Shown here piece after piece: positions 7,301 through 54,100 of a stretch of DNA of 64,000 bases. Below the pieces are notes generated by a model. It did not search any database and was not told the DNA's origin. It was given only the letters and a program-made list of their open reading frames with translations. Each line of letters opens with the position of its first letter. Positions within the stretch are counted from its first letter, which is position 1. Both the position numbers and the translations under genes were made by a program. The stretch lies in NCBI GenBank assembly GCA_032622095.1, contig CP136067.1, forward strand, positions 83,106,705 to 83,170,704, read 5' to 3'. The stretch is from Siphonodentalium dalli. Lineage: Eukaryota; Mollusca; Scaphopoda; Gadilida; Siphonodentaliidae.

Positions 7301-7492
7301 TAGATAAACAGAATGACAATTGACAAGGTGAGCCACTACTTATATTCCATGACTGTAATAATCATGTGTTGTGATGCTATTTGAATATACAATTTATGAG
7401 AAAACGTATAACACTTTAAGCAAGAGCATTCTCTATTCCCAACAAATATCCACAGCATACATTAACCTGGGCAACGCCGGGTAACCCTGCTA

Positions 7493-21274: not shown

Positions 21275-24200
21275 ACTTTTGTCTGGCATTTCGTGTTGTC
21301 TAACATATAACAACTGCACATCCCGCTGGATCCCGATGGTACAGGGAACTCGCCAAGGAAGTACGTTTTCGCCAATAGTTTATACTATCTTCATAGATGC
21401 TTTATTATACAGGATAGAGAAGTCGAACGTTAGTTTTAAGCTTTCCAACGTCAATTGTTCTTCACCCACCCATGCTGACGATATGGCACTTTGTTCACTT
21501 ACGTCTTACGGTCTGCAGTCACTGATTGATATTTGTGTCAACTATAGCAACTTTTGGAGGTATAGGTACAATCCTACAAAAACAGTAATTTGCATATTTA
21601 ATGAGTCCGCTGACACTGCGCACAGATCTTGGAATCTTAATGGCCGGACAATCATTGAAGGTGATCATGTCACGCATCTGGGGATTCCACTTGAGAAGCA
21701 TGCATTCCGAACAAAATTTGTGGAGAATATTTGTTCAAAGTTACGTTCAACATATTTTATGATTTCAAATGCAGGTTTGTATGCTGGTGGTATGACACAT
21801 ATTAGCTGTCTCAAAATATACAAGTCGGTTGTTCTCCCGCGTGCTTTATATGGCAGTGATCTCCTTTGTGATCTGACTTCATCTGACAAGGGGGGGGGCC
21901 TCGGCGGCTCAATCGGTTAGGGGTACAACTCCAAGCCGTTTCGCCCTCCAGCGCTGGCGATTAGGGTTCAAATCCACATGTTTCCATCATGGACTTTGTA
22001 ACTCGAAATCGTTATCTGGTGGAGTTACCAGTTACTCGCCGATGGCCGGTGGTTTGCCGCACATGGTTGACGAGTTTATCAGCCATTGAAATCACTGTTA
22101 GATTAGTCGCAAGTGTGCGGATTTCCCACACCACTAAAACTGGCAATGTCGTGATATGGCCTTAGTGGCTAAAGCGACAATAAACCCCAATCAATCAATC
22201 AGTTATCTGACAAGGAACGTCTGGAAAAGTCACACCGTCTGTGTTTGAAGCACATTCAAGGCTTGCCAATGCGTATACGTGCCGAAATCGTTCTAGGTCT
22301 TTTGTGGTGTTTTCCTATTGAGCGAGACATTGAATACAGAAAGTTTTCTTTGTTTTGCTCAGTATGTCATCTTAAACGGGGGAAGTCCGCGAAGGAGATC
22401 TTCCTGTACAGACTATTTCAATATGTGACATGCCTCAAGCTGTCAATAGGAACGCCTGCTCTGATTTGTTCCAGTTACTACACAAACGGGGCCTTCTTGA
22501 GAACGTTTATGCGTATCTCTCTTCTGTGGCATTCCCGGACAAATGTTTGTGGAAATGTTTTGTCGGACAGAGTGACTTAATTTGGGAACTGTCTTGGTCT
22601 TCCAGAACTAAGTATGATATATATTTTTGGAGATTCAACTCAGCCGATTCTTGCGTGCAAATGTCATATACATGGAAAGCCTGTAAGAAATTTCCGTCGG
22701 AGAAAGGCAACTTTTACGTAGCGGCAAAACTTTTATTGCTCAAAATTATTTGGTGATGAAGAATCTTGTCACGTGTGTGGCACATCCTACACTGACAGAA
22801 CGGCGCACATTTTACTTTATTGCTCATTCTTAGAGGCCGATATACTTTGTTTCTGGTATGACTTGATCGACACTTTCCATGTAAATACTTTTATTTCTGT
22901 AGACTCTATGTCATTAGACGATCAATTACTTTTATTTCTGGGTGTTATTCCTATAGAAACTCTATCACAGCATTACAATGACGAGGAGCTTTCGCTTATG
23001 GGAGTTTTTCTTAAGGCAACACATGATATGTGGTTTAAATGGAGCTTATAGCGCGTCCGGGACGCCGACAAAGAATGTCTGACTTACATTAGCTCTCATT
23101 TTCATTGAAAGTCATATTTTCGCTAATTAACAGCAATCTCAATTATGTTCTCTTTTTAACAACCGAACGTTTAATAACATACGCCAACTTAACGGTTATT
23201 AAACGTTCAGTAGTTATATGCACATTCAAGAGTTCTGTTATCGTTAAAACGCAGCGACGCGGTGAGCAGGATGCACACTCTGGACCTCCCGTACCCTGAA
23301 ATTATGTGCTAATTCCAATGAAAATTGTTAAATATGTTGATCTTTAAAATTTGCAAAGATATACTGTTTCCACAATTAACTTTCGGTCGATCTAAGTGAT
23401 GAAAGCACTGTCCCGAGCCTGCAGCATGCTTTCTGTTTTGCCATGTCGCTGTGGGGAATGGGTCTGTTAGTGAATGTGTAGCTTTATGCTACGGTCTGTT
23501 GACATATATCTGTATCTATTGTCAAGAATGTGTGTGCTTGTTTTTATTTATTTAATTATTTATTTATGTATGTATGTATTTATCTATTTATTGTGTGCCT
23601 ATGTGTGATTGTATTGATGAGTGCTTGTGTCTCATGGTGGCAGGAATTACTATTTACTTTCCTTTCTATATTTATAATTTTATTGTAACATGTATTTTGT
23701 AAAACATACTCTCCTAGCTGGTGGGAAATAAAGATATATGTATATAATTTATCAATCTTTTCAAGGTTTGTACAATAATATGTTTTTTTTATCCATGGGT
23801 TGAGTTATTTCCTCTAGTACGTGTGTCAGAACAAGAATAGTAGAATGATATATGCTAAAGCCATATGGACTATTATATAAGATGTTGTAATTGGTTAGAT
23901 AACCACTCAATCTGTTATACATTAGTTTCTCGAAAAAATTTGAAACTGGTCTGTTTTGCTTAGAAGAGTTGGGTATTTGGATATGAAGATGGGGCTTACT
24001 TTTGCTGTCTTCATAAGATCTGGAAATGCTCCATTAGCTAGCAAATATAGCTAGCATATATGAGTTAAAGGTAATATAAACTATTCAAGCATATAATTAT
24101 GGGTTTTCTTTTGTGACCATTGTGGACACATTTAGTTCTTAGAAATTATCCGTATCTGCGCAAACTAAAGCTGGCGCATATGCGACTAATTTTCCACCCT

Positions 24201-24324
24201 GATAGAAATTCCAGTTTCTAAAAACCGCATATAATTGGAAAGCCTATACATCATGTTGGAGGAAATCGGTGATAATATGTTTGGTTTTTTTATCAATTTT
24301 GTTTCCACGCTGACAAACCCATGC
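21275..24324 (+). repeat. Segmental array unit 2 of 5
   Basis: This is a near-identical copy of unit 1 with a 3,049-bp offset. It contains the LINE reverse transcriptase fragment from LSGIS through HADD (21,280-21,890), the SINE (21,892-22,204), the C-terminal part and finger (22,205-23,051), the LINE 3' end (about 23,750) and the flank. The G run at the SINE start is nine long against eight in unit 1, shifting the frame. It shares the short form (no nine-base insertion) with unit 1. Confidence 0.95.
21892..22204 (+). mobile_element. SINE copy in array unit 2
   Basis: This is the same insertion as in unit 1, with the same ATCTGACAAGG duplication at 21,881-21,891 and 22,205-22,215. It was therefore copied with the array rather than inserted independently. 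Confidence 0.88.
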
Positions 24325-27300
24325 ACTTTTGTCTGGCATTTCGTGTTGTCTAACATATAACAACTGCACATCCCGCTGGATCCCGATGGTACAGGGAACT
24401 CGCCAAGGAAGTACGTTTTCGCCAATAGTTTATACTATCTTCATAGATGCTTTATTATACAGGATAGAGAAGTCGAACGTTAGTTTTAAGCTTTCCAACG
24501 TCAATTGTTCTTCACCCACCCATGCTGACGATATGGCACTTTGTTCACTTACGTCTTACGGTCTGCAGTCACTGATTGATATTTGTGTCAACTATAGCAA
24601 CTTTTGGAGGTATAGGTACAATCCTACAAAAACAGTAATTTGCATATTTAATGAGTCCGCTGACACTGCGCTTAAAACAAACAGATCTTGGAATCTTAAT
24701 GGCCGGACAATCATTGAAGGTGATCATGTCACGCATCTGGGGATTCCACTTGAGAAGCATGCATTCCGAACAAAATTTGTGGAGAATATTTGTTCAAAGT
24801 TACGTTCAACATATTTTATTATTTCAAATGCAGGTTTGTATGCTGGTGGTATGACACATATTAGCTGTCTCAAAATATACAAGTCGGTTGTTCTCCCGCG
24901 TGCTTTATATGGCAGTGATCTCCTTTGTGAGCAGACTTCATCTGACAAGGGGGGGGGCTCGGTGGCTCAATCGGTTAGGGGTACAACTCCAAGCCGTTTC
25001 GCCCTCCAGCGCTGGCGATTAGGGTTCATATCCACATGTTTCCATCGTGGACTTTGTAACTCGAAATCGTTATCTGGTGGAGTTACCAGTTACTCGCCGA
25101 TGGCCGGTGGTTTGCCGCACATGGTTGACGAGTTTATCAGCCATTGAAATCACTGTTAGATTAGTCGCAAGTGTGCGGATTTCCTCCACCACTAAAACTG
25201 GCAATGTCGTGATATGGCCTTAGTGGCTAAAGCGACAATAAACCCCAATCAATCAATCAATCATCTGACAAGGAACGTCTGGAAAAGTCACACCGTCTGT
25301 GTTTAAAGCACATTCAAGGCTTGCCAATGCGTATACGTACCGATATCGTTCTAGGTCTTCTGGGGTGTTTTCCTATTGAGCGAGACATTGAATACAGAAA
25401 GTTTTCTTTGTTTTGCTCAGTATGTCATCTTAAACGGGGGAAGTCCGCGAAGGAGATCTTCCTGTACAGACTATTTCAATATGTGACATGCCTCAAGCTG
25501 TCAATAGGAACGCCTGCTCTGATTTGTTCCAGTTACTACACAAACGGGGCCTTCTTGAGAACGTTTATGCGTATCTCTCTTCTGTGGCATTCCCGGACAA
25601 ATGTTTGTGGAAATGTTTTGTCGGACAGAGTGACTTAATTTGGGAACTGTCTTGGTCTTCCAGAACTAAGTATGATATATATTTTTGGAGATTCAACTCA
25701 GCCGATTCTTGCGTGCAAATGTCATATACATGGAAAGCCTGTAAGAAATTTCCGTCGGAGAAAGGCAACTTTTACGTAGCGGCAAAACTTTTATTGCTCA
25801 AAATTATTTGGTGATGAAGAATCTTGTCACGTGTGTGGCACATCCTACACTGACAGAACGGCGCACATTTTACTTTATTGCTCATTCTTAGAGGCCGATA
25901 GACTTTGTTTCTGGTATGACTTGATCGACACTTTCCATGTAAATACTTTTATTTCTGTAGACTCTATGTCATTAGACGATCAATTACTTTTATTTCTGGG
26001 TGTTATTCCTATAGAAACTCTATCACAGCATTACAATGACGAGGAGCTTTCGCTTATGGGAGTTTTTCTTAAGGCAACACATGATATGTGGTTTAAATGG
26101 AGCTTATAGCGCGTCCGGGACGCCGACAAAGAATGTCTGACTTACATTAGCTCTCATTTTCATTGAAAGTCATATTTTCGCTAATTAACAGCAATCTCAA
26201 TTATGTTCTCTTTTTAACAACCGAACGTTTAATAACATACGCCAACTTAACGGTTATTAAACGTTCAGTAGTTATATGCACATTCAAGAGTTCTGTTATC
26301 GTTAAAACGCAGCGACGCGGTGAGCAGGATGCACACTCTGGACCTCCCGTACCCTGAAATTATGTGCTAATTCCAATGAAAATTGTTAAATATGTTGATC
26401 TTTAAAATTTGCAAAGATATACTGTTTCCACAATTAACTTTCGGTCGATCTAAGTGATGAAAGCACTGTCCCGAGCCTGCAGCATGCTTTCTGTTTTGCC
26501 ATGTCGCTGTGGGGAATGGGTCTGTTAGTGAATGTGTAGCTTTATGCTACGGTCTGTTGACATATATCTGTATCTATTGTCAAGAATGTGTGTGCTTGTT
26601 TTTATTTATTTAATTATTTATTTATGTATGTATGTATTTATCTATTTATTGTGTGCCTATGTGTGATTGTATTGATGAGTGCTTGTGTCTCATGGTGGCA
26701 GGAATTACTATTTACTTTCCTTTCTATATTTATAATTTTATTGTAACATGTATTTTGTAAAACATACTCTCCTAGCTGGGGGGAAATAAAGATATATGTA
26801 TATAATTTATCAATCTTTTCAAGGTTTGTACAATAATATGTTTTTTTTATCCATGGGTTGAGTTATTTCCTCTAGTACGTGTGTCAGAACAAGAATAGTA
26901 GAATGATATATGCTAAAGCCATATGGACTATTATATAAGATGTTGTAATTGGTTAGATAACCACTCAATCTATTATACATTAGTTTCTCGAAAAAATTTG
27001 AAACTGGTCTGTTTTGCTTAGAAGAGTTGGGTATTTGGATATGAAGATGGGGCTTACTTTTGCTGTCTTCATAAGATCTGGAAATGCTCCATTAGCTAGC
27101 AAATATAGCTAGCATATATGAGTTAAAGGTAATATAAACTATTCAAGCATATAATTATGGGTTTTCTTTTGTGACCATTGTGGACACATTTAGTTCTTAG
27201 AAATTATCCGTATCTGCGCAAACTAAAGCTGGCGCATATGCGAATAATTTTCCACCCTGATAGAAATTCCAGTTTCTAAAAACCGCATATAATTGGAAAG

Positions 27301-27382
27301 CCTATACATCATGTTGGAGGAAATCGGTGATAATATGTTTGTTTTTTTTATCAATTTTGTTTCCACGCTGACAAACCCATGC
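24325..27382 (+). repeat. Segmental array unit 3 of 5
   Basis: The offset from unit 2 is 3,050 bp and the unit is 3,058 bp long. It carries nine extra bases in the LINE (ALKTNRSW instead of AHRSW, near 24,668-24,685). It also has ATTATTTC instead of ATGATTTC near 24,817, GAGCAGAC instead of GATCTGAC near 24,928, and CTCCACCAC in the SINE. These define the subgroup of units 3-5. The SINE here has CATATCC in place of CAAATCC in the B box, unique to this unit. Confidence 0.95.
24951..25262 (+). mobile_element. SINE copy in array unit 3
   Basis: This is the same insertion event, flanked by ATCTGACAAGG (24,940-24,950 and 25,263-25,273). One substitution lies in the B box (GGTTCATATCC). The tail has an additional AATC unit compared with units 1-2. 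Confidence 0.88.
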
Positions 27383-30300
27383 ACTTTTGTCTGGCATTTC
27401 GTGTTGTCTAACATATAACAACTGCACATCCCGCTGGATCCCGATGGTACAGGGAACTCGCCAAGGAAGTACGTTTTCGCCAATAGTTTATACTATCTTC
27501 ATAGATGCTTTATTATACAGGATAGAGAAGTCGAACGTTAGTTTTAAGCTTTCCAACGTCAATTGTTCTTCACCCACCCATGCTGACGATATGGCACTTT
27601 GTTCACTTACGTCTTACGGTCTGCAGTCACTGATTGATATTTGTGTCAACTATAGCAACTTTTGGAGGTATAGGTACAATCCTACAAAAACAGTAATTTG
27701 CATATTTAATGAGTCCGCTGACACTGCGCTTAAAACAAACAGATCTTGGAATCTTAATGGCCGGACAATCATTGAAGGTGATCATGTCACGCATCTGGGG
27801 ATTCCACTTGAGAAGCATGCATTCCGAACAAAATTTGTGGAGAATATTTGTTCAAAGTTACGTTCAACATATTTTATTATTTCAAATGCAGGTTTGTATG
27901 CTGGTGGTATGACACATATTAGCTGTCTCAAAATATACAAGTCGGTTGTTCTCCCGCGTGCTTTATATGGCAGTGATCTCCTTTGTGAGCAGACTTCATC
28001 TGACAAGGGGGGGGCTCGGTGGCTCAATCGGTTAGGGGTACAACTCCAAGCCGTTTCGCCCTCCAGCGCTGGCGATTAGGGTTCAAATCCACATGTTTCC
28101 ATCGTGGACTTTGTAACTCGAAATCGTTATCTGGTGGAGTTACCAGTTACTCGCCGATGGCCGGTGGTTTGCCGCACATGGTTGACGAGTTTATCAGCCA
28201 TTGAAATCACTGTTAGATTAGTCGCAAGTGTGCGGATTTCCTCCACCACTAAAACTGGCAATGTCGTGATATGGCCTTAGTGGCTAAAGCGACAATAAAC
28301 CCCAATCAATCAATCAATCATCTGACAAGGAACGTCTGGAAAAGTCACACCGTCTGTGTTTAAAGCACATTCAAGGCTTGCCAATGCGTATACGTACCGA
28401 TATCGTTCTAGGTCTTCTGGGGTGTTTTCCTATTGAGCGAGACATTGAATACAGAAAGTTTTCTTTGTTTTGCTCAGTATGTCATCTTAAACGGGGGAAG
28501 TCCGCGAAGGAGATCTTCCTGTACAGACTATTTCAATATGTGACATGCCTCAAGCTGTCAATAGGAACGCCTGCTCTGATTTGTTCCAGTTACTACACAA
28601 ACGGGGCCTTCTTGAGAACGTTTATGCGTATCTCTCTTCTGTGGCATTCCCGGACAAATGTTTGTGGAAATGTTTTGTCGGACAGAGTGACTTAATTTGG
28701 GAACTGTCTTGGTCTTCCAGAACTAAGTATGATATATATTTTTGGAGATTCAACTCAGCCGATTCTTGCGTGCAAATGTCATATACATGGAAAGCCTGTA
28801 AGAAATTTCCGTCGGAGAAAGGCAACTTTTACGTAGCGGCAAAACTTTTATTGCTCAAAATTATTTGGTGATGAAGAATCTTGTCACGTGTGTGGCACAT
28901 CCTACACTGACAGAACGGCGCACATTTTACTTTATTGCTCATTCTTAGAGGCCGATAGACTTTGTTTCTGGTATGACTTGATCGACACTTTCCATGTAAA
29001 TACTTTTATTTCTGTAGACTCTATGTCATTAGACGATCAATTACTTTTATTTCTGGGTGTTATTCCTATAGAAACTCTATCACAGCATTACAATGACGAG
29101 GAGCTTTCGCTTATGGGAGTTTTTCTTAAGGCAACACATGATATGTGGTTTAAATGGAGCTTATAGCGCGTCCGGGACGCCGACAAAGAATGTCTGACTT
29201 ACATTAGCTCTCATTTTCATTGAAAGTCATATTTTCGCTAATTAACAGCAATCTCAATTATGTTCTCTTTTTAACAACCGAACGTTTAATAACATACGCC
29301 AACTTAACGGTTATTAAACGTTCAGTAGTTATATGCACATTCAAGAGTTCTGTTATCGTTAAAACGCAGCGACGCGGTGAGCAGGATGCACACTCTGGAC
29401 CTCCCGTACCCTGAAATTATGTGCTAATTCCAATGAAAATTGTTAAATATGTTGATCTTTAAAATTTGCAAAGATATACTGTTTCCACAATTAACTTTCG
29501 GTCGATCTAAGTGATGAAAGCACTGTCCCGAGCCTGCAGCATGCTTTCTGTTTTGCCATGTCGCTGTGGGGAATGGGTCTGTTAGTGAATGTGTAGCTTT
29601 ATGCTACGGTCTGTTGACATATATCTGTATCTATTGTCAAGAATGTGTGTGCTTGTTTTTATTTATTTAATTATTTATTTATGTATGTATGTATTTATCT
29701 ATTTATTGTGTGCCTATGTGTGATTGTATTGATGAGTGCTTGTGTCTCATGGTGGCAGGAATTACTATTTACTTTCCTTTCTATATTTATAATTTTATTG
29801 TAACATGTATTTTGTAAAACATACTCTCCTAGCTGGGGGAAAATAAAGATATATGTATATAATTTATCAATCTTTTCAAGGTTTGTACAATAATATGTTT
29901 TTTTTATCCATGGGTTGAGTTATTTCCTCTAGTACGTGTGTCAGAACAAGAATAGTAGAATGATATATGCTAAAGCCATATGGACTATTATATAAGATGT
30001 TGTAATTGGTTAGATAACCACTCAATCTATTATACATTAGTTTCTCGAAAAAATTTGAAACTGGTCTGTTTTGCTTAGAAGAGTTGGGTATTTGGATATG
30101 AAGATGGGGCTTACTTTTGCTGTCTTGATAAGATCTGGAAATGCTCCATTAGCTAGCAAATATAGCTAGCATATATGAGTTAAAGGTAATATAAACTATT
30201 CAAGCATATAATTATGGGTTTTCTTTTGTGACCATTGTGGACACATTTAGTTCTTAGAAATTATCCGTATCTGCGCAAACTAAAGCTGGCGCATATGCGA

Positions 30301-30439
30301 ATAATTTTCCACCCTGATAGAAATTCCAGTTTCTAAAAACCGCATATAATTGGAAAGCCTATACATCATGTTGGAGGAAATCGGTGATAATATGTTTGTT
30401 TTTTTTATCAATTTTGTTTCCACGCTGACAAACCCATGC
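27383..30439 (+). repeat. Segmental array unit 4 of 5
   Basis: The unit is 3,057 bp long and belongs to the 3-5 subgroup. The G run is eight long, so the LINE frame reads into the SINE as ARWLNRLGVQ instead of stopping. The SINE lies at 28,009-28,319, the LINE C-terminal part at 28,320-29,166 and the LINE 3' end near 29,870. Confidence 0.95.
28009..28319 (+). mobile_element. SINE copy in array unit 4
   Basis: This is the same insertion event, with the ATCTGACAAGG duplication at 27,998-28,008 and 28,320-28,330. A and B boxes are intact. Confidence 0.88.
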
Positions 30440-33400
30440 ACTTTTGTCTGGCATTTCGTGTTGTCTAACATATAACAACTGCACATCCCGCTGGATCCCG
30501 ATGGTACAGGGAACTCGCCAAGGAAATACGTTTTCGCCAATAGTTTATACTATCTTCATAGATGCTTTATTATACAGGATAGAGAAGTCGAACGTTAGTT
30601 TTAAGCTTTCCAACGTCAATTGTTCTTCACCCACCCATGCTGACGATATGGCACTTTGTTCACTTACGTCTTACGGTCTGCAGTCACTGATTGATATTTG
30701 TGTCAACTATAGCAACTTTTGGAGGTATAGGTACAATCCTACAAAAACAGTAATTTGCATATTTAATGAGTCCGCTGACACTGCGCTTAAAACAAACAGA
30801 TCTTGGAATCTTAATGGCCGGACAATCATTGAAGGTGATCATGTCACGCATCTGGGGATTCCACTTGAGAAGCATGCATTCCGAACAAAATTTGTGGAGA
30901 ATATTTGTTCAAAGTTACGTTCAACATATTTTATTATTTCAAATGCAGGTTTGTATGCTGGTGGTATGACACATATTAGCTGTCTCAAAATATACAAGTC
31001 GGTTGTTCTCCCGCGTGCTTTATATGGCAGTGATCTCCTTTGTGAGCAGACTTCATCTGACAAGGGGGGGGCTCGGTGGCTCAATCGGTTAGGGGTACAA
31101 CTCCAAGCCGTTTCGCCCTCCAGCGCTGGCGATTAGGGTTCAAATCCACATGTTTCCATCGTGGACTTTGTAACTCGAAATCGTTATCTGGTGGAGTTAC
31201 CAGTTACTCGCCGATGGCCGGTGGTTTGCCGCACATGGTTGACGAGTTTATCAGCCATTGAAATCACTGTTAGATTAGTCGCAAGTGTGCGGATTTCCTC
31301 CACCACTAAAACTGGCAATGTCGTGATATGGCCTTAGTGGCTAAAGCGACAATAAACCCCAATCAATCAATCAATCATCTGACAAGGAACGTCTGGAAAA
31401 GTCACACCGTCTGTGTTTAAAGCACATTCAAGGCTTGCCAATGCGTATACGTACCGATATCGTTCTAGGTCTTCTGGGGTGTTTTCCTATTGAGCGAGAC
31501 ATTGAATACAGAAAGTTTTCTTTGTTTTGCTCAGTATGTCATCTTAAACGGGGGAAGTCCGCGAAGGAGATCTTCCTGTACAGACTATTTCAATATGTGA
31601 CATGCCTCAAGCTGTCAATAGGAACGCCTGCTCTGATTTGTTCCAGTTACTACACAAACGGGGCCTTCTTGAGAACGTTTATGCGTATCTCTCTTCTGTG
31701 GCATTCCCGGACAAATGTTTGTGGAAATGTTTTGTCGGACAGAGTGACTTAATTTGGGAACTGTCTTGGTCTTCCAGAACTAAGTATGATATATATTTTT
31801 GGAGATTCAACTCAGCCGATTCTTGCGTGCAAATGTCATATACATGGAAAGCCTGTAAGAAATTTCCGTCGGAGAAAGGCAACTTTTACGTAGCGGCAAA
31901 ACTTTTATTGCTCAAAATTATTTGGTGATGAAGAATCTTGTCACGTGTGTGGCACATCCTACACTGACAGAACGGCGCACATTTTACTTTATTGCTCATT
32001 CTTAGAGGCCGATAGACTTTGTTTCTGGTATGACTTGATCGACACTTTCCATGTAAATACTTTTATTTCTGTAGACTCTATGTCATTAGACGATCAATTA
32101 CTTTTATTTCTGGGTGTTATTCCTATAGAAACTCTATCACAGCATTACAATGACGAGGAGCTTTCGCTTATGGGAGTTTTTCTTAAGGCAACACATGATA
32201 TGTGGTTTAAATGGAGCTTATAGCGCGTCCGGGACGCCGACAAAGAATGTCTGACTTACATTAGCTCTCATTTTCATTGAAAGTCATATTTTCGCTAATT
32301 AACAGCAATCTCAATTATGTTCTCTTTTTAACAACCGAACGTTTAATAACATACGCCAACTTAACGGTTATTAAACGTTCAGTAGTTATATGCACATTCA
32401 AGAGTTCTGTTATCGTTAAAACGCAGCGACGCGGTGAGCAGGATGCACACTCTGGACCTCCCGTACCCTGAAATTATGTGCTAATTCCAATGAAAATTGT
32501 TAAATATGTTGATCTTTAAAATTTGCAAAGATATACTGTTTCCACAATTAACTTTCGGTCGATCTAAGTGATGAAAGCACTGTCCCTAGCCTGCAGCATG
32601 CTTTCTGTTTTGCCATGTCGCTGTGGGGAATGGGTCTGTTAGTGAATGTGTAGCTTTATGCTACGGTCTGTTGACATATATATATGTATCTATTGTCAAG
32701 AATGTGTGTGCTTGTTTTTATTTATTTAATTATTTATTTATGTATGTATTTATCTATTTATTGTGTGCCTGTGTGTGATTGTATTGATGAGTGCTTGTGT
32801 CTCATGGTGGCAGGAATTACTATTTACTTTCCTTTCTATATTTATAATTTTATTGTAACATGTATTTTGTAAAACATACTCTCCTAGCTGGGGGGAAATA
32901 AAGATATATGTATATAATTTAGCAATCTTTTCAAGGTTTGTACAATAATATGGTTTTTTTTATCCATGGGTTGAGTTATTTCCTCTAGTACGTGTGTCAG
33001 AACAAGAATAGTAGAATGATATATGCTAAAGCCATATGGACTATTATATAAGATGTTGTAATTGGTTAGATAACCACTCAATCTATTATACATTAGTTTC
33101 TCGAAAAAATTTGAAACTGGTCTGTTTTGCTTAGAAGAGTTGGGTATTTGGATATGAAGATGGGGCTTACTTTTGCTGTCTTCATAAGATCTGGAAATGC
33201 TCCATTAGCTAGCGAATATAGCTAGCATATATGAGTTAAAGGTAATATAAACTATTCAAGCATATAATTATGGGTTTTCTTTTGTGACCATTGTGGACAC
33301 ATTTAGTTCTTAGAAATTATCCGTATCTGCGCAAACTAAAGCTGGCGCATAGGCGACTAATTTTCCACCCTGATAGAAATTCCAGTTTCTAAAAACCGCA

Positions 33401-33494
33401 TATAATTGGAAAGCCTATACATCATGTTGGAGGAAATCGGTGATAATATGTTTTTTTTTTCATCAATTTTGTATCCACGCTGACAAACCCATGC
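30440..33494 (+). repeat. Segmental array unit 5 of 5
   Basis: The unit is 3,055 bp long and in the 3-5 subgroup. A private change GGAAATACG replaces GGAAGTACG (RQGN for RQGS). It ends at 33,494, where the flank continues uniquely as ACTTTGGCATC instead of jumping back to ACTTTTGTCTGG. That shared ACTTT marks the original recombination junction. Private changes cluster in its 3' flank (such as AGCAATC, TATATATATG). Confidence 0.95.
31066..31376 (+). mobile_element. SINE copy in array unit 5
   Basis: This is the same insertion event, with the ATCTGACAAGG duplication at 31,055-31,065 and 31,377-31,387. A and B boxes are intact. Confidence 0.88.
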
Positions 33495-35099
33495 ACTTTG
33501 GCATCTTTAAACCATCATTAGATTTCATGGATCATAGAGTGAGAGCTTTCCGATGAATGGCAACAAGCCATATTTCCGACTAAATCCTGAAAAGTTACCC
33601 ATAATTATGCTTTGGCTAAGGAGTCGCTAATTAGAGCATTACTGTAGCTATATAAGTTTGTGTATGAAGAATCTGATTGCTCTTCTATATTCACAATTTT
33701 ATGGCTTCAAGTGTTCGGCAAAAAAAAATAGCCACTCGAAGAAAAGCCAGTATCTGCACTAAACATCCAAGAACATACATGTTCTAAATTAGTTTAATGA
33801 TGGTTGCAATCATTTTATCAGTGCAATTTGATTGTCTTAATATTTTCTTCAAAAGATGAGTGTCCGTTTTAAACACGTACTCCGAGAGTCCGCGACCTAA
33901 ATTATAAATGCCACTGAAAGATTCAAGTTGTTTAAGTCGTCTGCTAAAATGTACACAAGTAGTCTATTTGAGTATGGTATTAGGAAAAGCTGGGACCGAA
34001 CACATTCGCCCATTCGATACGACGGTCTATTACATTATATAGTAAGCAGTCAGTCAAGAAATATAATAGTCTAATGTATGTTAGCAAGGTATAACATCAA
34101 TACCATACGGTAAGACCTTTGACTTGCTATAAAATTAAAGATGATCTACCAAAGATGGGCCCGAATTACAGCAAAAAGATGTTTATACATCCCTATATCA
34201 AGACTACAAATCGCTATTTTTCTGAATAAAATACAGACAAAAACTGAAGATGGGGTATAATATTTATAAACCGAGCCCCACTGTGGAATCATAATGATAA
34301 GATACATAGAGGATATCTACACTTTTTGGTTAGATATGAGATGTAAAAAAAAAATGAATTTCCACGAGTGGCTCTACCACGAGTGGAAATTCATTTTCTG
34401 TGTCATCACGAATGAGATAATTACTATATCCAACAAAAAGTGTAGATGTTCTGTTTATTATATGCTCCGCTCAATTGACGCATGGTTCAACTTGAAAGAA
34501 GAGTAAAAAGTGCTAATTTGTATAACCAAGCACAGCCATGGTAATGAGCTTGTGCATATAATTCTAGTTCCATTTTTCAGAGAGATTGGTTGAGGGGAAA
34601 AGGGGCTAACATCATAGTATGTCTAACAAAGAAATTTACCTTGATCGCAAATTACAATTTCTCAATGAAGCGATGTTAACTCATCTCGTACCGAATCACT
34701 TTTAATTTTAGCGCGGATGGATATGGGTGAGATATCGATATCTCACTAGTCGGATAATGGTCTTTATCTGATGCAACAATACTACTATTTGATAGCATAA
34801 CATATAATAATAGCTATTATGATTGATTAGTGCAACTTGGATTTGCAACATCATAATCTCAGACATCAATCAAATAATCAATCTCAGAATAATCAAAATA
34901 TGCATAAAAACAAATTAATTTGAGTTGTCACCACATATGCCAACACTTACAATAATGATGAGGCATCACACCCATGGCTCAATGTAACAAGTGCACCGCT
35001 GGGCCGACTGTACAATCAGAGAGGATTTATCTTATTTTTGTGCAAATACTTATTAAATGGCACTTTGTAAAGTTATGTTATTCATGAGTATTTAGTACG
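33495..35099. other. Non-coding stretch right of the array
   Basis: This is AT-rich DNA with no recognised gene. It contains one strong hairpin (34,351-34,397, separate entry). The open frame at 34,294-34,506 overlaps the hairpin and has no recognisable content. Confidence 0.6.
34351..34397. repeat. Perfect two-tier hairpin
   Basis: The outer stem AAAATGAATTTCCAC (34,351-34,365) pairs with GTGGAAATTCATTTT (34,383-34,397), 15 bp without mismatch. Inside is a symmetric GA/GA internal loop, then a 4-bp stem GTGG/CCAC and the loop CTCTA. The tandem G-A arrangement could form sheared pairs in RNA. It has no flanking target duplication that I can see. Confidence 0.8.
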
Positions 35100-35745
35100 A
35101 ATGTTGTTCTATATTAGCTTCAAATTTGGTCTGGTGCCACAAAAATAGAAGGAAAACTGAATTTTCTAAAAAAAAAATGAATTTTTTAAGTCGAAAAAGG
35201 GTCATAACTCTAACAAAAATTATCCGATTGAACCGAAATTTTACCTTGTTATCAAGTTATCATCTGGAAACCAAAAAAAGTAGCAGAACAACCTGAATTT
35301 TCTAAGTCCAAAAAGGGGCGTAACTCTGGAAAAAATGGGCGGACGAAACCACGGCTATGGGGAAATCTTGTTCCCCCGGCTGGTCTATTGGCATACCAAA
35401 GATCAACTGAATTGAATTAGCGAAACCAAAGTTATGAGTTGAAACGTTCGTATGCCACAGAAAACTGAATTTTCTAAGTCCAAAAAGGGGCGTAACTCTG
35501 GAAAAAAATGGGCGGCCGAAACCGCAGTTATGGGGAAATCTTGTCCCCCCGGCGGGTCTATTAGCATATCAAAGATCAACTGAATTGAGTTAGCGAAACC
35601 AAAGTTATGAGTTGAAACGTTCGCACGGACGGAAGGACGGATGGACGGAATGACGGACGGACGGACGGACGGACGGAGGGCTCCACTATATACCCCCAAA
35701 TCTCCATCGGAGATCGGGGCATAATAATCACCTACTGAGCTATTG
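35100..35745 (+). mobile_element. Core-repeat (pearl/HINE-like) element
   Basis: Two to three degenerate units of about 180 bp share TTTTCTAAGTCCAAAAAGGG and CAAAGATCAACTGAATTGA (35,160-35,625). An (ACGG)n tract follows at 35,626-35,682. The end has a hairpin made of CCCC-AAATCTCC and GGAGATC-GGGG (35,693-35,720). It has the same plan as the element at 16.2-17.2 kb but a different sequence. Its right edge meets the left end of the fold-back element, so the boundary is uncertain. Confidence 0.55.
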
Positions 35746-36639
35746 GTATTATTGCTGTGAAAAGACCACAGCACGTGAATGACACCCACGCGTGTTATAG
35801 TGTAGGTAGTTAGCGTTTTGATCAATACAAGTCGGATAAAAGCGCCATTTTTTAATATCTTGTTGGACAGCATCTCTAGTCTAGGAATTTTTTCAAGAAC
35901 CAACTTTTTGACCGACGTAGAGCCGAAAATTTAAGATGGCGTCCAAGATGGCCGCCGGTTTGACGGTGGTACACTTAATAGCTTTGCTTCTCAATTTTAT
36001 ATGTTTAACATAACGAATTCCACCCTATTATCTAAGAATGGTGGTTATCGAATAATAGCCCCCACTTTTAGTTGAAAAATGGCCACAATTATTCAAGATG
36101 GATGCCAAAATGGCGGCAAAAACATGGAAATGTTTTTTTTTTTCCTTATTTTTGTTTAAATACTTTACAATTTTAGAGATAATATAAGAAAAGATATCAA
36201 CAATGTGTTGACTATTCGATGGAATAACCTCTGTGAAAGAGTCATGCACACTAAAGGCGAAGTAGTGTAGTTTGTTATGGTACAAATGTGAGGTAGAATA
36301 TGTGCTATGTAAATGAGCAAAATTATTCTCCGACAGGTTTTCATTCTGTAAATGCTTAGAAACGAACCATGAATGGCTCTGATGTCTTCAATTCTATTTG
36401 CGACACTACTATATGGTTGGATAAATTGAATAAACATTTTAATATCGAGATATTTACAAATAACAATTTAGTAGTGGATTTACCACGAAATTAGGAAACA
36501 CCAAATGACAAAACCCATAATCGTCAAACTCAATTTGGTTCTCAAAACAGGAACACATGGAAGGTATTCTGCAACACATCTTCATCATCCGGACTCGTAT
36601 TCAAATTATAAATACTATGAAATTTGAAAATGCACTTTG

Positions 36640-37590
36640 TTTTAAACAAACTGAATTGAACAATTCACTTCTCACAACCACACGGCTGCACAACTTCGTA
36701 CATGGAAGTTTGCTTCTTGAACATTTTCACCTGAAACAAACCGATATGCAAACACATTTAGTCAACTCTGTGCACTCTCTAGCTGCGTCTAGGTTGTCAT
36801 CCATAGAGTAACAAAAGAACTGTCAATCAATTTCCATCCAAAGAAGTCAGGTGTTGGAAACTTTGCATCTACTGTGGGGCTTACAGTCCAGATACCAGTC
36901 TGATATATATAGCACGATATTCATTTGAAAGGGCATGTTCCTCGTTGGTGGTATTGAACATTTCATGTCTAGCTTCATTAACTGAGGTCAGGTTCACAGA
37001 TTTGTCATAAACAATCTCAACGAAATGCTAAATACACTCAATAGTGGTGATGAAACATCAAGAACCACACAGGGATTCCTCGTAATTGGCATCAAGCATT
37101 CTGTGAGCTAAGCTTTACAAGCATCCCAAAATTGCGCTTACCCTTACCAAGGAAATGGGAAGTTGAGTCGCATCCTGATATCGGATGGAATATTGGAAGT
37201 ACAGTTGAATTTTGTTTAGCCCATTGAATTGCACATATCAACTATGTTGTAGGTAACATGGGATTTAGACTTCTCGAAAGACAAACAGTTTCAAATGTTT
37301 GCATTGAAGAAGCATAGCATGCAGATGTCCCAACATGATCACGATAATATATGTGTCAACAGTGTGAACAATAATCGATGAATTATCGGTTTGTAGCATA
37401 TGAAATATATGTTCTTCTCACACCAAAACCAGCGATTCGCCCATCTATAAAAGGAGGGGCGGTAATAAATGTGACTTCCTAAGCTGCATGAAGGTCCCAT
37501 CCGATTCAAACTGCATAGAAACTGCAGAGCCAAATCCAAAGGTCGAGTGTAAGGTGTTCGACGGAGGTGCTCTGATACATTTACTGACAC
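36640..37590 (-). pseudogene. Left-arm mirror copy of the fold-back protein, decayed
   Basis: Read on the minus strand, the left arm repeats the C-terminal half of the protein in the right arm. ICYKPIIHRLLFTLLTHILS (ending near 37,339) matches the right-arm frame ICYTLIIHRLLFVLLTRILS. Further on, LTECLMPITRNPCVVLDV and FVSGENVQEANFHVRSCA correspond to right-arm segments. Many stops and frame changes intervene. There is no independent N-terminal part; the copy exists only as the mirror arm. Confidence 0.55.
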
Positions 37591-39430
37591 CTGAAGTCGG
37601 GCTTACCTTCTCAATGTATATCAGCACAAAGTTTATTCCATATGTTATGATGCAGCTCGCAGATTGTAGAAGTACTGACTTGGTTTTGGACAGGTAAATA
37701 TAGGGTAGTATCGAAACAGGAACGTGAGAGAAACGTGGTTGTGGCATTCGAGGTAAGGTTGGGGCTTACTTCAAAAAATCAACCGAATTGGAATGACTTT
37801 CTCAGAAACACCACAACAGGCAAGAATTGTTTGCATTGGTCAATGAATGTCTCTTTAAATTGGAAACCCTAACAGGGAAAACCATCTTCGTAACGGAGGA
37901 TGGTGACACCGTCCAAATGTGTAACCTATACTCTTTGGATATACGTATGAAGAAGCTGACAGTAGATTAGTCGGACATATATCTCATATGCTACACACTC
38001 ATTATTCATCGATTATTGTTCGTACTGTTGACAAGGATATTATCGTGATTCTGTTGTGACATCTGCATGTTATGCTACTCCAATGCAAAGATTTGAAACT
38101 GTGTCTCTCGGCAAGTCTAAATCCCATGTTATCCGCAACATAGTTGATATGTACAATTCAATTGGGGTCAGAAAAAAATTCAACTTTGCTTCCAATATTA
38201 CATAATTTCCATGCGATATCAGGATGCGACTCAACTTCCTTTTTCTTTGGTAAGGGCAAGCGCACATTTTGGGATGATTGAAAAGCTTACCCATGGCTAA
38301 CAGAATGCTTGATGTCAATTACGAGGAATCCTTTTGTGGTACTTAATGTTCCATCACCACTATTTGTGTGTATTTAGCATTTCGTCGTGATTGTTTATGA
38401 CAAATCTGCGAACATGACCTCAGTTAATGAAGATAGACATGAAATGTTCAGCAAAGGCCGTGCACACGAACAGTTACCACCAAAGAAATCGTGCTACTAG
38501 TATATATCAGGTTGGTATATGGACTGTAAGCCCCATAATAGATGCAAAGTGTCCAGCATCTGACTCACTGGGGGAAAACTATTTCACAAGAATCGATTCT
38601 ATCGCCTTTCTGGTTCTGTCTCTATCGAACTAAGTCCCGACTCTTTCGCGATTTAAAACAAATATTTTCAAAGTTTTGACCGCCATTTATACACTAAATA
38701 TCAAAACAGAACTATTTTCTAAACAAATATCCGTAGATTAGGTCTTTGCTCGTTCTTATTGATGATAATAATGCGAAATCAGCAATTTTGTGCACACTTA
38801 GAGGCATAATGCATTTTTGTGCATTTCCTATTTAAATTAAGCAGCAATTTGATAAGTTTATCGGCCTTGACACTTTTAGTTGGGCTGGAACATATATCTC
38901 TGTATGATCGAACACTATAATAACCACATTTTCTATCATAAAACCTGACAAGTTCCAGCCCAAATTGAATGTGATAAAATCTGAGCATCAAACTGCTGCT
39001 TAATTCTCGTGGGAAATACACTCAAATGCACGTCTCTAAATGTGCACAACAAGCATCCGATTTTGCACAAACAAAGACCGAATCTGTCGATTGTTATTGG
39101 AGAATACTTTCTGTATTGACAGTCAGTGTATAAACAACCTATCAAAACCTATCGAATATTTTTTTAACAAACCGCGAAAGAGTCGGAACTTAATTTGATG
39201 GAGACGGAACCGGAAGGGTGATATAATTGATTCTGGTGAAACAGTCCCCCCCCCCCAATGTGACTCCTTCTGGTGGATATAATGATTATTTTGTTCCTGT
39301 ATGGATGACAACCACAGAAGTGGCGAGAGTGTGCACCGAATTGAATAACTGTGTTTGCAAATCGGTTTGTTTCAGGTGCAAATGTTCAAAAAGCAAACTT
39401 CCATGTACGTAGTTGTGCAGATGTGGTTGT
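37460..39430 (+). pseudogene. Transposon-associated protein with EEAD, GCD and CXC motifs (broken)
   Basis: Blocks in order on the plus strand: KVFDGGALIHLL (37,551-37,586); a segment with EKRGCGIRGKV near 37,727-37,765; QELFALVNECLF near 37,818; EEADSRLVGHI (37,949-37,981); IIVRTVDKDIIVI (38,012-38,050); AISGCDSTSFFFGKGKRTFW (38,213-38,272); KGRAHEQLPPKK near 38,455-38,490; PVWMTTTEVARVC near 39,298-39,336; and a Cys-rich end NCVCKSVCFRCKCSKSKLPC (about 39,347-39,409). This order matches a family of uncharacterised transposon-linked proteins I remember from invertebrates, ending in a Tesmin/TSO1-like CXC segment that may bind DNA. Several stops, frameshifts and the 695-bp MITE break it. The N-terminal half is absent. 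The function of the family is not known to me. Confidence 0.65.
38566..39260. mobile_element. 695-bp MITE in the right arm of the fold-back
   Basis: Imperfect terminal inverted repeats of about 80 bp: the left end CACTGGGGGAAAACTATTTC corresponds to the complement of the right end, CATTGGGGGGGGGACTGTTTC. Both continue to a shared ACTCTTTCGCG. TGACT flanks both sides (38,561-38,565 and 39,261-39,265), so the target duplication is 5 bp or slightly longer. The mirror arm lacks the insert, giving an empty-site comparison. The interior has no transposase. The superfamily is uncertain. Confidence 0.75.
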
Positions 39431-40675
39431 GAGTAGTGAATTGTCAATTCAATTTATTAAAACAAAGTGTATTTTAATATTTGCTGATTCCGTCTTCCCA
39501 CAACATGGCCCCATGGAGTATATCCCAGCAACAATAGAACATACAAAATTATACATATGCATATATATGCAATACATTGCACACTAATGTATATACTGTT
39601 GAATATGTGCTATTCGCATGATTGCTTCATGTTCTGTTGCGGGAATAATTGAGGACACTATATGATACAAGGAAATAATATTATTTCTTATTCCGAACTC
39701 AAATATACTTTCGAGTATATGCTTCAATCATTTTGTGTATAATTTGACATAAAACACTGAATTTAAGTATTGGTAATTTGAATACGAGGCCTGATGATGA
39801 AGATATGTTGCAGAATACCTTCCATATGTTCTTGTTTTTTGAGAACCAAACTGAGTTTGAAGAATATGGGGTCTGTCGTTTAGTGTTTCCTAAATTCGTG
39901 GTAAATCCACTACTAAATTGATTTTTTATTCGTAAACATCTCGACATACAAAGTTGTATTCAATTGATCCAACCATATAGTAGTGTCGTAAATAGAATTG
40001 GTGACATTAGTGTCATTCACGGTTGGTTATTAAGCATTTACAGAATTAAACACAGTCTGAGAATATTTTCATTCATTTTATATAGCACATATTCTATCTC
40101 ACATTACTACCAGAACGAACAATACTACTTCACCTTTAATGTGCATGACTTTTCCACAGAAGTTATCACATCAAATAATGAACACATAGTTGATATCTTC
40201 CTTTATATTATCTCGAAAATTGTAAAGTATTTAATAACAAAATAATGAAAAAACCCAATTTCTCATGTTTTGGCCGCCATTTTGGCATCCATCTTGAATA
40301 ATTGTGGCCATTTTTCAACTAAGAGTCAAGGTTGTTATTCTATAAACACCATTATTATACAATGTGGGGAAATTCATCATGTTTACCATATCAAATCGGG
40401 AAGCAGATCTATTAGGTGTGCCACCGTCAAACTGGCGGCCATCTTGGACGCCATCTTGAATTTTCGGCTCTACGTCGGTCAAAAAGTTGGTTCTTGAGAA
40501 AATTCCTAGACTAGAGATGCTGTCCTACAAGATACTAAAAAATGGCGCTTTTATCCGACTTGTATCGATCCGAGCATTTTTTGTCGCTAACTGCCTACAC
40601 TATTATGAGTACGCTTGAATCTTTTCGCAACATCAAAGCCGTTGAGCGAAATAGGTAATTATATTACCCGCCGTG

Positions 40676-44560: not shown

Positions 44561-45290
44561 CTAGCCGATGAGCCCGACGTTGTCCGGGCTATTCAAAAAC
44601 CAAATTTCAAGTCGATAGCTCCACCCGTTTCCGATATCTGGTCTGCGCATGCGCGAAGCTGGCGTCGCACGGGCTCGGCGACCCGATAAAATTCGTATCC
44701 GGGGCATGATACATTCACATACCAAATTTCAAGTCGATAGCTCCACCCGTTTCCGAGATCTCGTCTGCGCATGCGCGAAGCTGGCGTCGCACGGGCTCGG
44801 CGACCCGATAAAATTCGTATCCGGGGCAAGATACATTCACATACCAAATTTCAAGTCGATAGCTCAACCCGTTTCCGAGATCTCGTCTGCGCATGCGCGA
44901 AGCTGGCGTCGCACGGGCTCGGCGACCCGATAAAATTCTTATTCGGGGCAAGATACATTCACATACCAAATTTCAAGTCGATAGCTCCACCTAGCCGATG
45001 AGCCCGACGTTGTCCGGGCTATTCATCCGGGCTATTCAAAAACCAAATTTCAAGTCGATAGCTCCACCCGTTTCCGAGATCTCGTCTGCGCATGCGCGAA
45101 GCTGACGTCGCACGGGCTCGGTGACCCGATAAAATTCGTATCCGGGGCAAGATACATTCACATACCAAATTTCAAGTCGATAGCTCCACCCGTTTCCGAG
45201 ATCTCGTCTGCGCATGCGCGAAGCAGGCGCCGCACGGGCTCGCCAATACGACAACGTTCACCGCCTGGTCAAACTACACTCACGTACCAA
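44561..45290 (-). mobile_element. Helitron/HINE-like element(s), family A, minus strand, rearranged
   Basis: CTAG lies at 44,561-44,564 with its hairpin just inside, then three 122-bp cores with motifs at 44,643, 44,765 and 44,888. A second CTAG-plus-hairpin sits inside the array at 44,991-45,017, followed by a duplicated fragment of the hairpin (45,024-45,033) and two more cores (45,087, 45,209). The unique part ends near 45,290 at the start of repeat L, with no TC end visible. This is probably two elements, the second truncated. Confidence 0.5.
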
Positions 45291-49743: not shown

Positions 49744-49749
49744 GTAATT

Positions 49750-50465
49750 CCCGTTATAATGGAAGGCGAGGAACAGTTGTGTGCATCGGGGAAAGGTTTA
49801 CGCTATGTGGTGTTCTTTTACAGTGTATATTATTTGGATTCAGGGCCCAATATGTCTGATTTAATTCAAATAATTTTCAAGGTGGGCTGGACGAAAGGAA
49901 ATTGATAAATCAGCACGATAACAGAGAAACGCTTTCGAAGCCGCTAAAATCGCTGAACTTGGGAAGGCAAACTATAGGTGTGAACACTCTGTAAACATAC
50001 ATTCCCAAAATGTTCGTGGATGCTAAAATTTCAACGCATGCTAGAAATATCACTAACAACAGTGTAAAATTTACTTGTAATGATCTTTAGCAAGCCGGAT
50101 TCAACGATTAAACTGTTAGGTCTCGGAGCGGACATTGTAGTAACGCGATTGAGACATATAAGCAACCACATTGAGTTAGCCAGCCTTCGAAGCCTAATAC
50201 TAAAACCTCTAAAACAAATCGTGCAGCTATGTAGCTACATGTAGCTGTCTCCACATTCAAGAACCGGAATGTGTTGACACTGTCGTCTTTTCAAAGGGAA
50301 ATAGGAGAGTCAAAATTTCGTTGTAGTAAACAGTTTCTCATACCATCCGTTAACTGCATGTGTGTGTCAATTGATGGACTTATGACATATTCGCTAATTG
50401 TCGATGTTTCTTTAAATGCACGGATGGCCTTGGTACTAGTAGTCCAGGAGATATTGGTCGACCTC
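49750..50465 (+). repeat. Repeat X fragment, plus orientation
   Basis: This is the complement of about 51,955-52,660 in the X array, starting CCCGTTATAATGGAAGGCGAGG. It includes the frame LTLSSFQREIGESKFRCSKQ near 50,271-50,330, also seen in each array unit. It ends near 50,460 at the start of the second L copy. Together with the minus-oriented array it forms an inverted pair around that L copy. Confidence 0.75.
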
Positions 50466-50469
50466 TGCA

Positions 50470-51175
50470 CCCCCCAGGACTCAACTTCACCCCACTAATT
50501 TTCTTCCTTAAGGTCTCCTCTAATTTTTTCACTTGTTAACAAGAAAAAAAAGTGGCCGCAGAGACTCCGGACAAGATGGCGTCCATCATGGCGGCCATTT
50601 AAAAAAAATGCACCAGGTCTCTTTGATTGTCGTTATAGTAAAGATGATATCACATGCGGTCTTGTTTTTCGCTCGATTCGTTATGGTAATATACAACCCT
50701 TACAAATTAGTCAAAAATCCGACACCAGAATCCAATATGGCGGCCAAGATGGCCGCGAAATGTGAAAATATGCTATTTTTCTGACATGTTACCACCTTTC
50801 GTTTGTCTCTGTGGGAAATTGTTGGCATCTTTGCGTCATGTTATACATTTATCATATAGAGGAGTCATTGGCGACCACATGGGGATCATATTATACATTC
50901 ATTGCGGGATATTTTTGTCCGATATCACGTTTTCCCAAATGCCGGTATAATAGGTCAAAGCCGAATCTACGTTAATAACGCGATGTAATGTTTCGAATCA
51001 ATGAATGTTATTGCTATTATAACAACACCCATGCATATAAATGTGCAGGATATACTCGAGCTAGGATACCTCTTATACCTGAGTTGAGGAATATTTACCC
51101 AAATCCAAGATGGCGGCCAAAATGGCCACCAGAAATAAAAAATCGCCGAAAATCGCCGATTTTAACATCAGTGAG
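50470..51175 (+). repeat. Repeat L, copy 2, direct orientation
   Basis: This closely matches 45,295-46,000, starting CCCCCCAGGACTCAACTTCA. Paired ATGGCGGCC motifs lie near 50,572, 50,737 and 51,108. It is cut at GTGAGCA (51,177), where the X array begins; copy 1 continues with TTATTGTCATG at the equivalent point. Confidence 0.8.
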
Positions 51176-54100
51176 CAGAGCCAATCATCCAGAACTCCAA
51201 AAATCAACACACTGGAGGTCAACTGGCACATGCCATATTTGATCGCTTGCGGTTTGAACTCTCCTGTTCCTTGTTGTAGCCCAGTCACGCCTAACAACAT
51301 TGTCCCAGCCGTTATTTCTCCTTGTGTGTTTCGGTATTCGTTCAACGATCGGGGCCTTTAGCTAGCTGTCAGTAACTGGAGTCGCATGCCGCGAACGCTT
51401 TGAACTTGCAGGCTGCGTTTGTTCGGCTAAGGTACTGGACACCTCGAAATAACTTTCCGACTGCTGCTTTGTGGTACTGGGAATGCGTTAGAAAATACTA
51501 GATCCCAGTTATCGTCCAAACATGGCCAATTATCAAAATCCCTATTATGACTTGTGAACGCTTGTCTGTGAAATGAATGGACTGTTCAAGAGAATTTTGA
51601 TATAATAGAGCTGCCATTGGTGTTATTTAGACATCATACTACCTATAGCATGAACACACTATTCACAAGTATTTAATCACGACGAGTCGTGGTCAATATC
51701 GTGAATGAATTGATTAATTCGGCTATGTCTTATCTTGTGCTCTAATCAGGTTATAGACTTGTCATTATGGTTTACTCGAAATATGCACTCGCCTGTTGGC
51801 ACGTGACATTTCTCATATATACCAATAATAAGTATGTAACCTACAGAATAAAACTTGCTCATATTGCATGTCGGAATAAACTCACCGGTACACGTCAGTT
51901 CGCGATTGATCTTTAATCATATTGTCTGATTTTCCCGATTATCTATTAAACAGCATACAATGCAAACAAGTACCAAGGCCATCCGTGCATTTAAAGAAAC
52001 ATCGACAATTAGCGAATATGTCATAAGTCCATCAATTGACACACACATGCAGTTAACGGATGGTATGAGAAACTGTTTACTACAACGAAATTTTGACTCT
52101 CCTATTTCCCTTTGAAAAGACGACAGTGTCAACACATTCCGGTTCTTGAATGTGGAGACAGCTACATGTAGCTACATAGCTGCACAATTTGTTTTAGAGG
52201 TTTTAGTATTAGGCTTCGAAGGCTGGCTAACTCAATGTGGTTGCTTATATGTCTCAATCGCGTTACTACAATGTCCGCTCCGAGACCTAACAGTTTAATC
52301 GTTGAATCCGGCTTGCTAAAGATCATTACAAGTAAATTTTACACTGTTGTTAGTGATATTTCTAGCATGCGTTGAAATTTTAGCATCCACGAACATTTTG
52401 GGAATGTATGTTTTCAGAGTGTTCACACCTATAGTTTGCCTTCCCAAGTTCAGCGATTTTAGCGGCTTCGAAAGCGTTTCTCTGTTATCGTGCTGATTTA
52501 TCAATTTCCTTTCGTCCAGCCCACCTTGAAAATTATTTGAATTAAATCAGACATATTGGGCCCTGAATCCAAATAATATACACTGTAAAAGAACACCACA
52601 TAGCGTAAACCTTTCCCCGATGCACACAACTGTTCCTCGCCTTCCATTATAACGGGACCAGCTATAGTCGTTTATGGAAGCAAACACCCCATTTTCCCTT
52701 CTCACCTCCATAACGAAACGGCAGAGCCAATCATCCAGAACTCCAAAAATCAACACACTGGAGGTCAACTGGCACATGCCATATTTGATCGCTTGCGGTT
52801 TGAACTCTCCTGTTCCTTGTTGTAGCCCAGTCACGCCTAACAAAATTGTCCCAGCCGTTATTTCTCCTTGTGTGTTTCGGTATTCGTTCAACGATCGGGG
52901 CCTTTAGCTAGCTGTCAGTAACTGGAGTCGCATGCCGCGAACGCCTTGAACTTGCAGGCTGCGTTTGTTCGGCTAAGGTACTGGACACCTCGAAATAACT
53001 TTCCGACTGCTGCTTTGTGGTACTGGGAATGCGTTAGAGCATACTAGATCCCAATTATCGTCCAAACATGGCCAATTATCAAAATCCTTATTATGACTTG
53101 TGAACGCTTGTCTGTGAAATGAATGGACTGTTCAAGAGAATTTTGATATAATAGAGCTGCCATTGGTGTTATTTAGACATCATACTACCTATAGCATGAA
53201 CACACTATTCACAAGTATTTAATCACGACGAGTCGTGGTCAATATCGTGAATGAATTGATTAATTCGGCTATGTCTTATCTTGTGCTCTAATCAGGTTAT
53301 AGACTTGTCATTATGGTTTACTCGAAATATGCACTCGCCTGTTGGCACGTGACATTTCTCATATATACCAATAATAAGTATGTAACCTACAGAATAAAAC
53401 TTGCTCATATTGCATGTCGGAATAAACTCACCGGTACACGTCAGTTCGCGATTGATCTTTAATCATATTGTCTGATTATCCCGATTATCTATTAAACAGC
53501 ATACAATGCAAACAAGTACCAAGGCCATCCGTGCATTTAAAGAAACATCGACAATTAGCGAATATGTCATAAGTCCATCAATTGACACACACATGCAGTT
53601 AACGGATGGTATGAGAAACTGTTTACTACAACGAAATTTTGACTCTCCTATTTCCCTTTGAAAAGACGACAGTGTCAACACATTCCGGTTCTTGAATGTG
53701 GAGACAGCTACATGTAGCTACATAGCTGCACGATTTGTTTTAGAGGTTTTAGTATTAGGCTTCGAAGGCTGGCTAACTCAATGTGGTTGCTTATATGTCT
53801 CAATCGCGTTACTACAATGTCCGCTCCGAGACCTAACAGTTTAATCGTTGAATCCGGCTTGCTAAAGATCATTACAAGTAAATTTTACACTGTTGTTAGT
53901 GATATTTCTAGCATGCGTTGAAATTTTAGCATCCACGAACATTTTGGGAATGTATGTTTTCAGAGTGTTCACACCTATAGTTTGCCTTCCCAAGTTCAGC
54001 GATTTTAGCGGCTTCGAAAGCGTTTCTCTGTTATCGTGCTGATTTATCAATTTCCTTTCGTCCAGCCCACCTTGAAAATTATTTGAATTAAATCAGACAT

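Follow-up and report, generated by a model that had tools for sequence, protein, structure and literature searches.

The genome of the scaphopod Siphonodentalium dalli contains a long palindrome around a coding center, located in a 64,000-nucleotide stretch of contig CP136067.1 that was analyzed as a whole (the window). A preliminary description left it undecided whether such a structure is the regular form of a transposon family or a one-off inverted duplication, and the locus also raises the question of how a fold-back of this size comes into being. The best explanation, to which we assign a probability of roughly 0.85, is a non-autonomous transposon of the cut-and-paste type that was derived once from an autonomous-looking 7.5-kb element and then spread.

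Geometry of the palindrome and its unfolded relatives

Repeat search and alignment identified inverted arms at 35798-37412 and 37975-40602, with 227 differences over 1,607 paired sites (85.9% identity, that is, an arm-versus-arm divergence of ∼14%). The inverted local-alignment score was 563, whereas the maximum among 26 control stretches of the same window was 21. The imperfect palindrome is real, and its description as a diverged palindrome around a coding center that is not itself palindromic holds. The element, a fold-back (long inverted-arm) non-autonomous DNA transposon on the forward strand, spans 4,805 bp (35798-40602), begins and ends with TAGTGTAGG...CCTACACTA, and is made up of a left arm of 1.6 kb, a center of 0.56 kb, and a right arm of 2.6 kb. 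Its limits are those at which the 18 fetched close copies start and stop within a few bases, and are flanked by a target duplication, TTA (35795-35797 and 40603-40605, from flank comparison); the ends initially given as 35717 and 40675 were thus misplaced.

The single-copy center (37413-37974, plus strand), whose decayed coding sequence precedes the mirrored part, and the right arm together encode the remains of one protein, distributed over several frames and interrupted by stops. Coding sequence does therefore enter the right arm, as had been noted; it extends to ∼39436 and is followed by 3′ non-coding sequence and the right end. The left arm mirrors the C-terminal part of the same decayed protein on the minus strand.

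A protein search returned long open frames of 1,509, 1,507, 1,187, and 798 codons, and shorter ones. Two of the relatives, of 7,457 bp (C1:226309758-226317214; target duplication TTC) and 7,660 bp (C1:256363021-256370680; target duplication CTG), are intact. They are 99.1% identical over 6.7 kb, have the same ends as the fold-back, possess open frames of ∼1,500 codons and 3-bp duplications, and carry terminal repeats of about 57-67 bp (75% identity); a long palindrome is absent from both. These 7.5-kb elements show the parent form of the fold-back. On the first relative, the left arm corresponds to positions 7457 to 5544 in inverted orientation, and the center plus right arm to positions 4954 to 7457 in direct orientation. 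Identity to the relative is 94.6% over the first 56 nt and 80-83% in the interior. The fold-back is a derivative of the 7.5-kb elements in that it combines the same termini and a homologous interior with a broken gene frame. It keeps 455 of the relative's 1,509 codons (30%); an arm accounts for 258 of these, which is 57% of what is kept and 17% of the intact open frame, so that the earlier estimate of "a third or more" of the gene residing in the repeat was too high.

The left arm lacks ∼0.29 kb that is present in the relative (6653-6364) and in the right arm, the gap lying at 36589-36620 (positions 792/823 of the element). A stretch of ∼0.28 kb at 39483-39766 had been considered an insertion into the right arm, which was rejected; the intact relative contains the same sequence, and the left arm must therefore have lost it. 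The right arm in turn contains a nested insertion of ∼0.69 kb (38567-39260; between 6143 and 6138 of the relative), itself a diverged palindrome flanked by TGACTC repeats and shared by the five subfamily representatives examined (E, F, G, H, and K). When the genome was searched with the nested insertion, many of the best 40 of 455 candidates, which were scored, were at right-arm loci.

Further repeats were observed elsewhere in the window. Five head-to-tail units of ∼3,055 bp (98.4-99.5% identical) occupy 18217-33499, and the translations of their open frames read as reverse-transcriptase-like. Tandem repeats of 122 bp occur at 1-950, 3288-3618, and 44591-45290, that is, on both sides of the window's center, in opposite orientation. 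The region 49749-55059 contains inverted repeats of 0.7 kb and direct repeats of 0.8-2.3 kb, with identities of about 99-99.9%.

Formation of the fold-back

The fold-back carries traces of its assembly at both ends of the left arm. Nucleotides 1-27 (35798-35824, plus strand) are of the left-end type: like the relatives' left ends, they show a 10-nt gap and a diagnostic A (nt 27). The inverted right-end type has taken over by nt 49. Among the subfamily representatives, E and K have A at nt 33, whereas F, G, and H have T; the switch can therefore be placed no more closely than between nt 27 and nt 49 (35824-35846), and between 27 and 48 nt of the parent's left end were retained. At the inner joint (37409-37412), the inverted and the direct parent sequence overlap by 4 bp (ATGT), identically in E, F, G, H, and K. 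The element thus reads as the start of a left end, the inverted right part, a 4-bp microhomology, and the right part in direct orientation.

Mis-templated gap repair is the likely origin of this arrangement. A parent copy would have excised, and the gap would have been filled by synthesis from both sides. Synthesis on the left would have taken in the first part of the left end, jumped by way of the short terminal inverted repeat to a template's right end, and proceeded inward from there; on the right, the same right part would have been copied from its own end, and the two products would have been joined at ATGT. Such a repair would lose the front part of the gene and keep both recognized ends. 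With the front of the gene gone, the product would be unable to move itself; it would have been mobilized in trans by intact relatives, and so have spread and divided into subfamilies.

The history of the arms was addressed by tree tests. When the arms of E and F were compared with the intact element A, 50 sites marked the left arms, 46 marked the right arms, and 2 grouped the arms by element; grouping by element was rejected (AU 3.2e-10). With six elements and A as the sole root, the left arms and the right arms separated into two clades, each with 100% support. Left arms cluster apart from right arms, and the palindrome thus predates the split into these subfamilies. When two more unfolded copies were included (n1 was left out owing to its poor alignment), the best tree placed the arms closest to each other, two alternatives being retained at AU 0.12 and 0.15, which hints weakly at a single template for both arms.

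These tree tests are also compatible with arms stemming from two slightly different copies, as would result from two successive recombination events: recombination between the short inverted ends would flip the interior of a parent, and unequal exchange of the flipped copy with one still in the original orientation would follow. This route likewise yields a switch within the terminal repeat, and the 4-bp joint could serve in it. However, it requires two events plus a flipped intermediate, and a joint of 4 bp is more in keeping with end joining or template switching than with homologous exchange; we therefore consider it improbable and prefer gap repair.

Whether the gene was intact at the time of folding can be approached via lesions common to the arms. 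An in-frame TAG (38375-38377 in the right arm, plus strand; 37028-37030 in the left arm, minus strand) was found in 11 of the 12 arms examined, at a position where the unfolded elements A, B, n8, and n4 have GAG. So widely shared a stop suggests that the source copy was already broken before the fold-back formed. A +1 frameshift thought to be common to both arms was withdrawn, since wider comparison put it at different positions, or found none in some arms. None of the other lesions that had seemed shared survived wider comparison, which leaves one shared stop codon.

Decay, spread, and persistence of the family

Mismatches between the arms were distributed evenly over the codon positions (12.3, 14.0, and 13.8%), at a level similar to that of non-coding sequence (14.5%). 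In the comparison of the F left arm with intact A, by contrast, the third position was in excess (11.8, 13.6, and 26.1%). Given the absence of codon-position bias between the arms, the coding remnant is dead and has been drifting since the fold-back formed, with the intact line under constraint. The notion that the right arm completes the protein has to be abandoned, its frame being broken and the arm differences being equal across the three positions. Of 197 private changes in the close copies, 53 fell on the 14% of paired sites at which the arms differ, and 37 of these 53 were to the state of the other arm (cells, not events, were counted); some arm-to-arm conversion, or hot spots, may account for this.

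Complementarity between the arms is perfect in 17 runs of 18 bp or more (up to 50 bp), so that a transcript could form a long, if imperfect, double strand and might, as first proposed, give rise to siRNA. The fold-back might accordingly have been kept as a natural silencer, acting on the parent transposon through double-stranded RNA, and not by transposition alone, the more so as its arms align with the intact relative's 3′ part. Yet at ∼80-83% identity, this match is poor for silencing the present intact relatives, and the arms evolve without detectable constraint, which makes such a role very improbable.

How widely the structure is shared was determined in the 2.23-Gb assembly (9 contigs). 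With the right arm as the query, the best 40 of 407 candidates were scored (93-100% identity), and the 18 best other loci, chosen by right-arm similarity and not by structure, were fetched, plus L039, which completes a tandem neighbor. All 18 close copies aligned to 35798-40602 end to end (98.5-99.3% identity), 16 of them in a single unbroken alignment and two (L027 and L035) with internal deletions. Among the 19 close copies including that of the window, pairwise differences ranged between 0.36 and 1.04% (mean 0.68%), and the window copy appears as a member of a recent burst, which forms part of the reading preferred above. More diverged relatives were picked from the lower part of a spacer-protein list (150 scored of 836 candidates); all four (L044 to L047) carried the same fold-back with the same nested insertion, the fetched stretches of L045 and L046 stopping short of the right ends. 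The spacer protein also gave four same-strand matches at C3:121152404-121164689, spaced by ∼4,025 bp, which suggests a tandem array of a related element.

A 201-bp query spanning the joint was covered fully (93-100% identity) by all of the best 40 of 370 candidates, which were scored. A 27-nt joint pattern (at most two mismatches) matched the genome 144 times and its unfolded counterpart, taken from the intact relative (at most three mismatches), 14 times, controls giving no match (the reversed pattern in the case of the joint); the ratio of 144 to 14 is rough, the patterns and mismatch limits differing and diverged unfolded copies possibly escaping. Of the 40 right-arm matches, 30 recurred among the listed matches of the 201-bp query, 5 more among those of the 27-nt pattern, and 5 in neither. 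Other copies thus share the fold-back and its ends (18 of 18 close copies), and single, non-palindromic copies, which would have pointed to a local rearrangement, were not encountered among the fetched close (18 of 18 folded) and diverged (4 of 4 folded) copies; of the two options left by the preliminary description, a real family structure was the right one. A one-off inverted duplication at this locus, for which it can only be said that a single locus would look alike, has practically no probability left, given the fold-back in every fetched copy and the 144 occurrences of the joint, and a local rearrangement was rejected on the grounds that the joint is common to the copies.

Insertion generated an exact 3-bp target duplication at 19 of 21 sites, namely, those of the window copy, 16 close copies, L044, L047, and the two intact relatives (L022 and L036 were left out, one end not being recognized by the script). 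In mismatched pairs of flanks, 3-bp agreement was found in 20 of 380. The two exceptions are L028, with a duplication of 4 bp, and L025, where the site joins the two members of a head-to-tail dimer. The dimer (L025 and L039; C3:113.86 Mb) consists of two fold-backs merged at CCTACACTAGTGTAGG, with no duplication between them and TTA outside the pair.

At the window locus, the ∼65-80 bp beyond each end are target sequence (35717-35797 and 40606-40669) and form an imperfect palindrome of their own: when joined, the flanks show self-complementarity over 146 columns (60% identity, E 4.6e-8). With the element sitting in the middle of this ∼146-bp palindrome, palindromes are nested three deep. A general preference for palindromic targets was rejected, as flank complementarity was 18 at the window locus and between 6 and 12 at the other 19 sites (background of 380 mismatched pairs, 8.7 ± 1.7, maximum 16).

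The fold-back shape might itself be advantageous: fold-backs, giant palindromes that retain half a dead gene and both recognized ends, would have out-multiplied the colinear forms and lasted through several subfamilies, with their arms drifting by 14% in the meantime. The doubled right-end sequence, or hairpin RNA directed at the transposase 3′ end, might alter regulation or mobilization to this effect. We regard this as a tentative and rather doubtful idea. The arms began as near-copies and then drifted, so that each element keeps two clocks, one dating the palindrome (∼14% between arms) and one dating the latest burst (mean of 0.68% between copies). A multi-kilobase imperfect palindrome can evidently persist and spread over a long time, and whether such elements silence their parents via small RNAs becomes a directly testable question.

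Comparison with known transposons

The defined ends (18 of 18 copies) and the 3-bp duplication (19 of 21 sites) place the family among the class II terminal-inverted-repeat transposons. It is foldback-like in that long inverted arms make up most of the element, a trait shared by all four diverged relatives. The arms of Drosophila Foldback are internally tandem-repetitive. So are those of Galileo, according to an excerpt of PMC3573991; here, no tandem array with a score of at least 100 was detected within 35798-40602. Assignment to the MITEs, which carry no coding sequence and as a rule stay well below 1 kb, was rejected in view of the length of 4.8 kb and the coding remnant.

AcademX transposons encode an XPG-type nuclease, and the intact open frame contains what we take to be FEN/XPG-like acidic motifs and a cysteine cluster. 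Searches of Pfam, PHROGs, and PDB with the open frame and pieces of it gave no meaningful match, only a few below threshold. Affinity to AcademX is likely, a candidate lead and not a classification. Rfam at gathering scores gave no match, a phage search no useful match, and IMG/VR three pattern matches, none of which was confirmed. The 3-bp duplication of this family fits the 3 or 4 bp given for AcademX, which is described as having a nuclease in the same excerpt (PMC10045372), and Academ elements have reportedly amplified in bivalves, with a mean length of 5,565 bp (PMC10294476, in extract). No fold-back derivative of Academ was described in the titles and abstract beginnings of the literature searched, which does not prove its absence.

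Tetris of Drosophila virilis and Tm1 of Meloidogyne are also termed foldback transposons, a likeness in name. Abortion of gap repair, slippage, and template switching are listed, in a section of PMC4168063, as sources of defective copies. The closest likeness is to Galileo (Drosophila, P superfamily), the terminal inverted repeats of which extend by recruiting internal sequence; in the authors' account, one repeat and its neighbor are copied in place of the other, and the longest repeats given in that excerpt are of ∼1.25 kb, with 95% identity (PMC3573991). This is the same kind of extension as proposed here. The present family differs from Galileo in starting from a parent repeat of only ∼60 bp, in having recruited 1.6 kb that take in the gene's 3′ end, in having lost the front of the gene, and in sharing one joint across a lineage of several subfamilies. 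The fold-back illustrates clearly an already known route by which such elements arise, and its birth is well resolved, with parent form, switch, and microhomology joint all legible in one genome.
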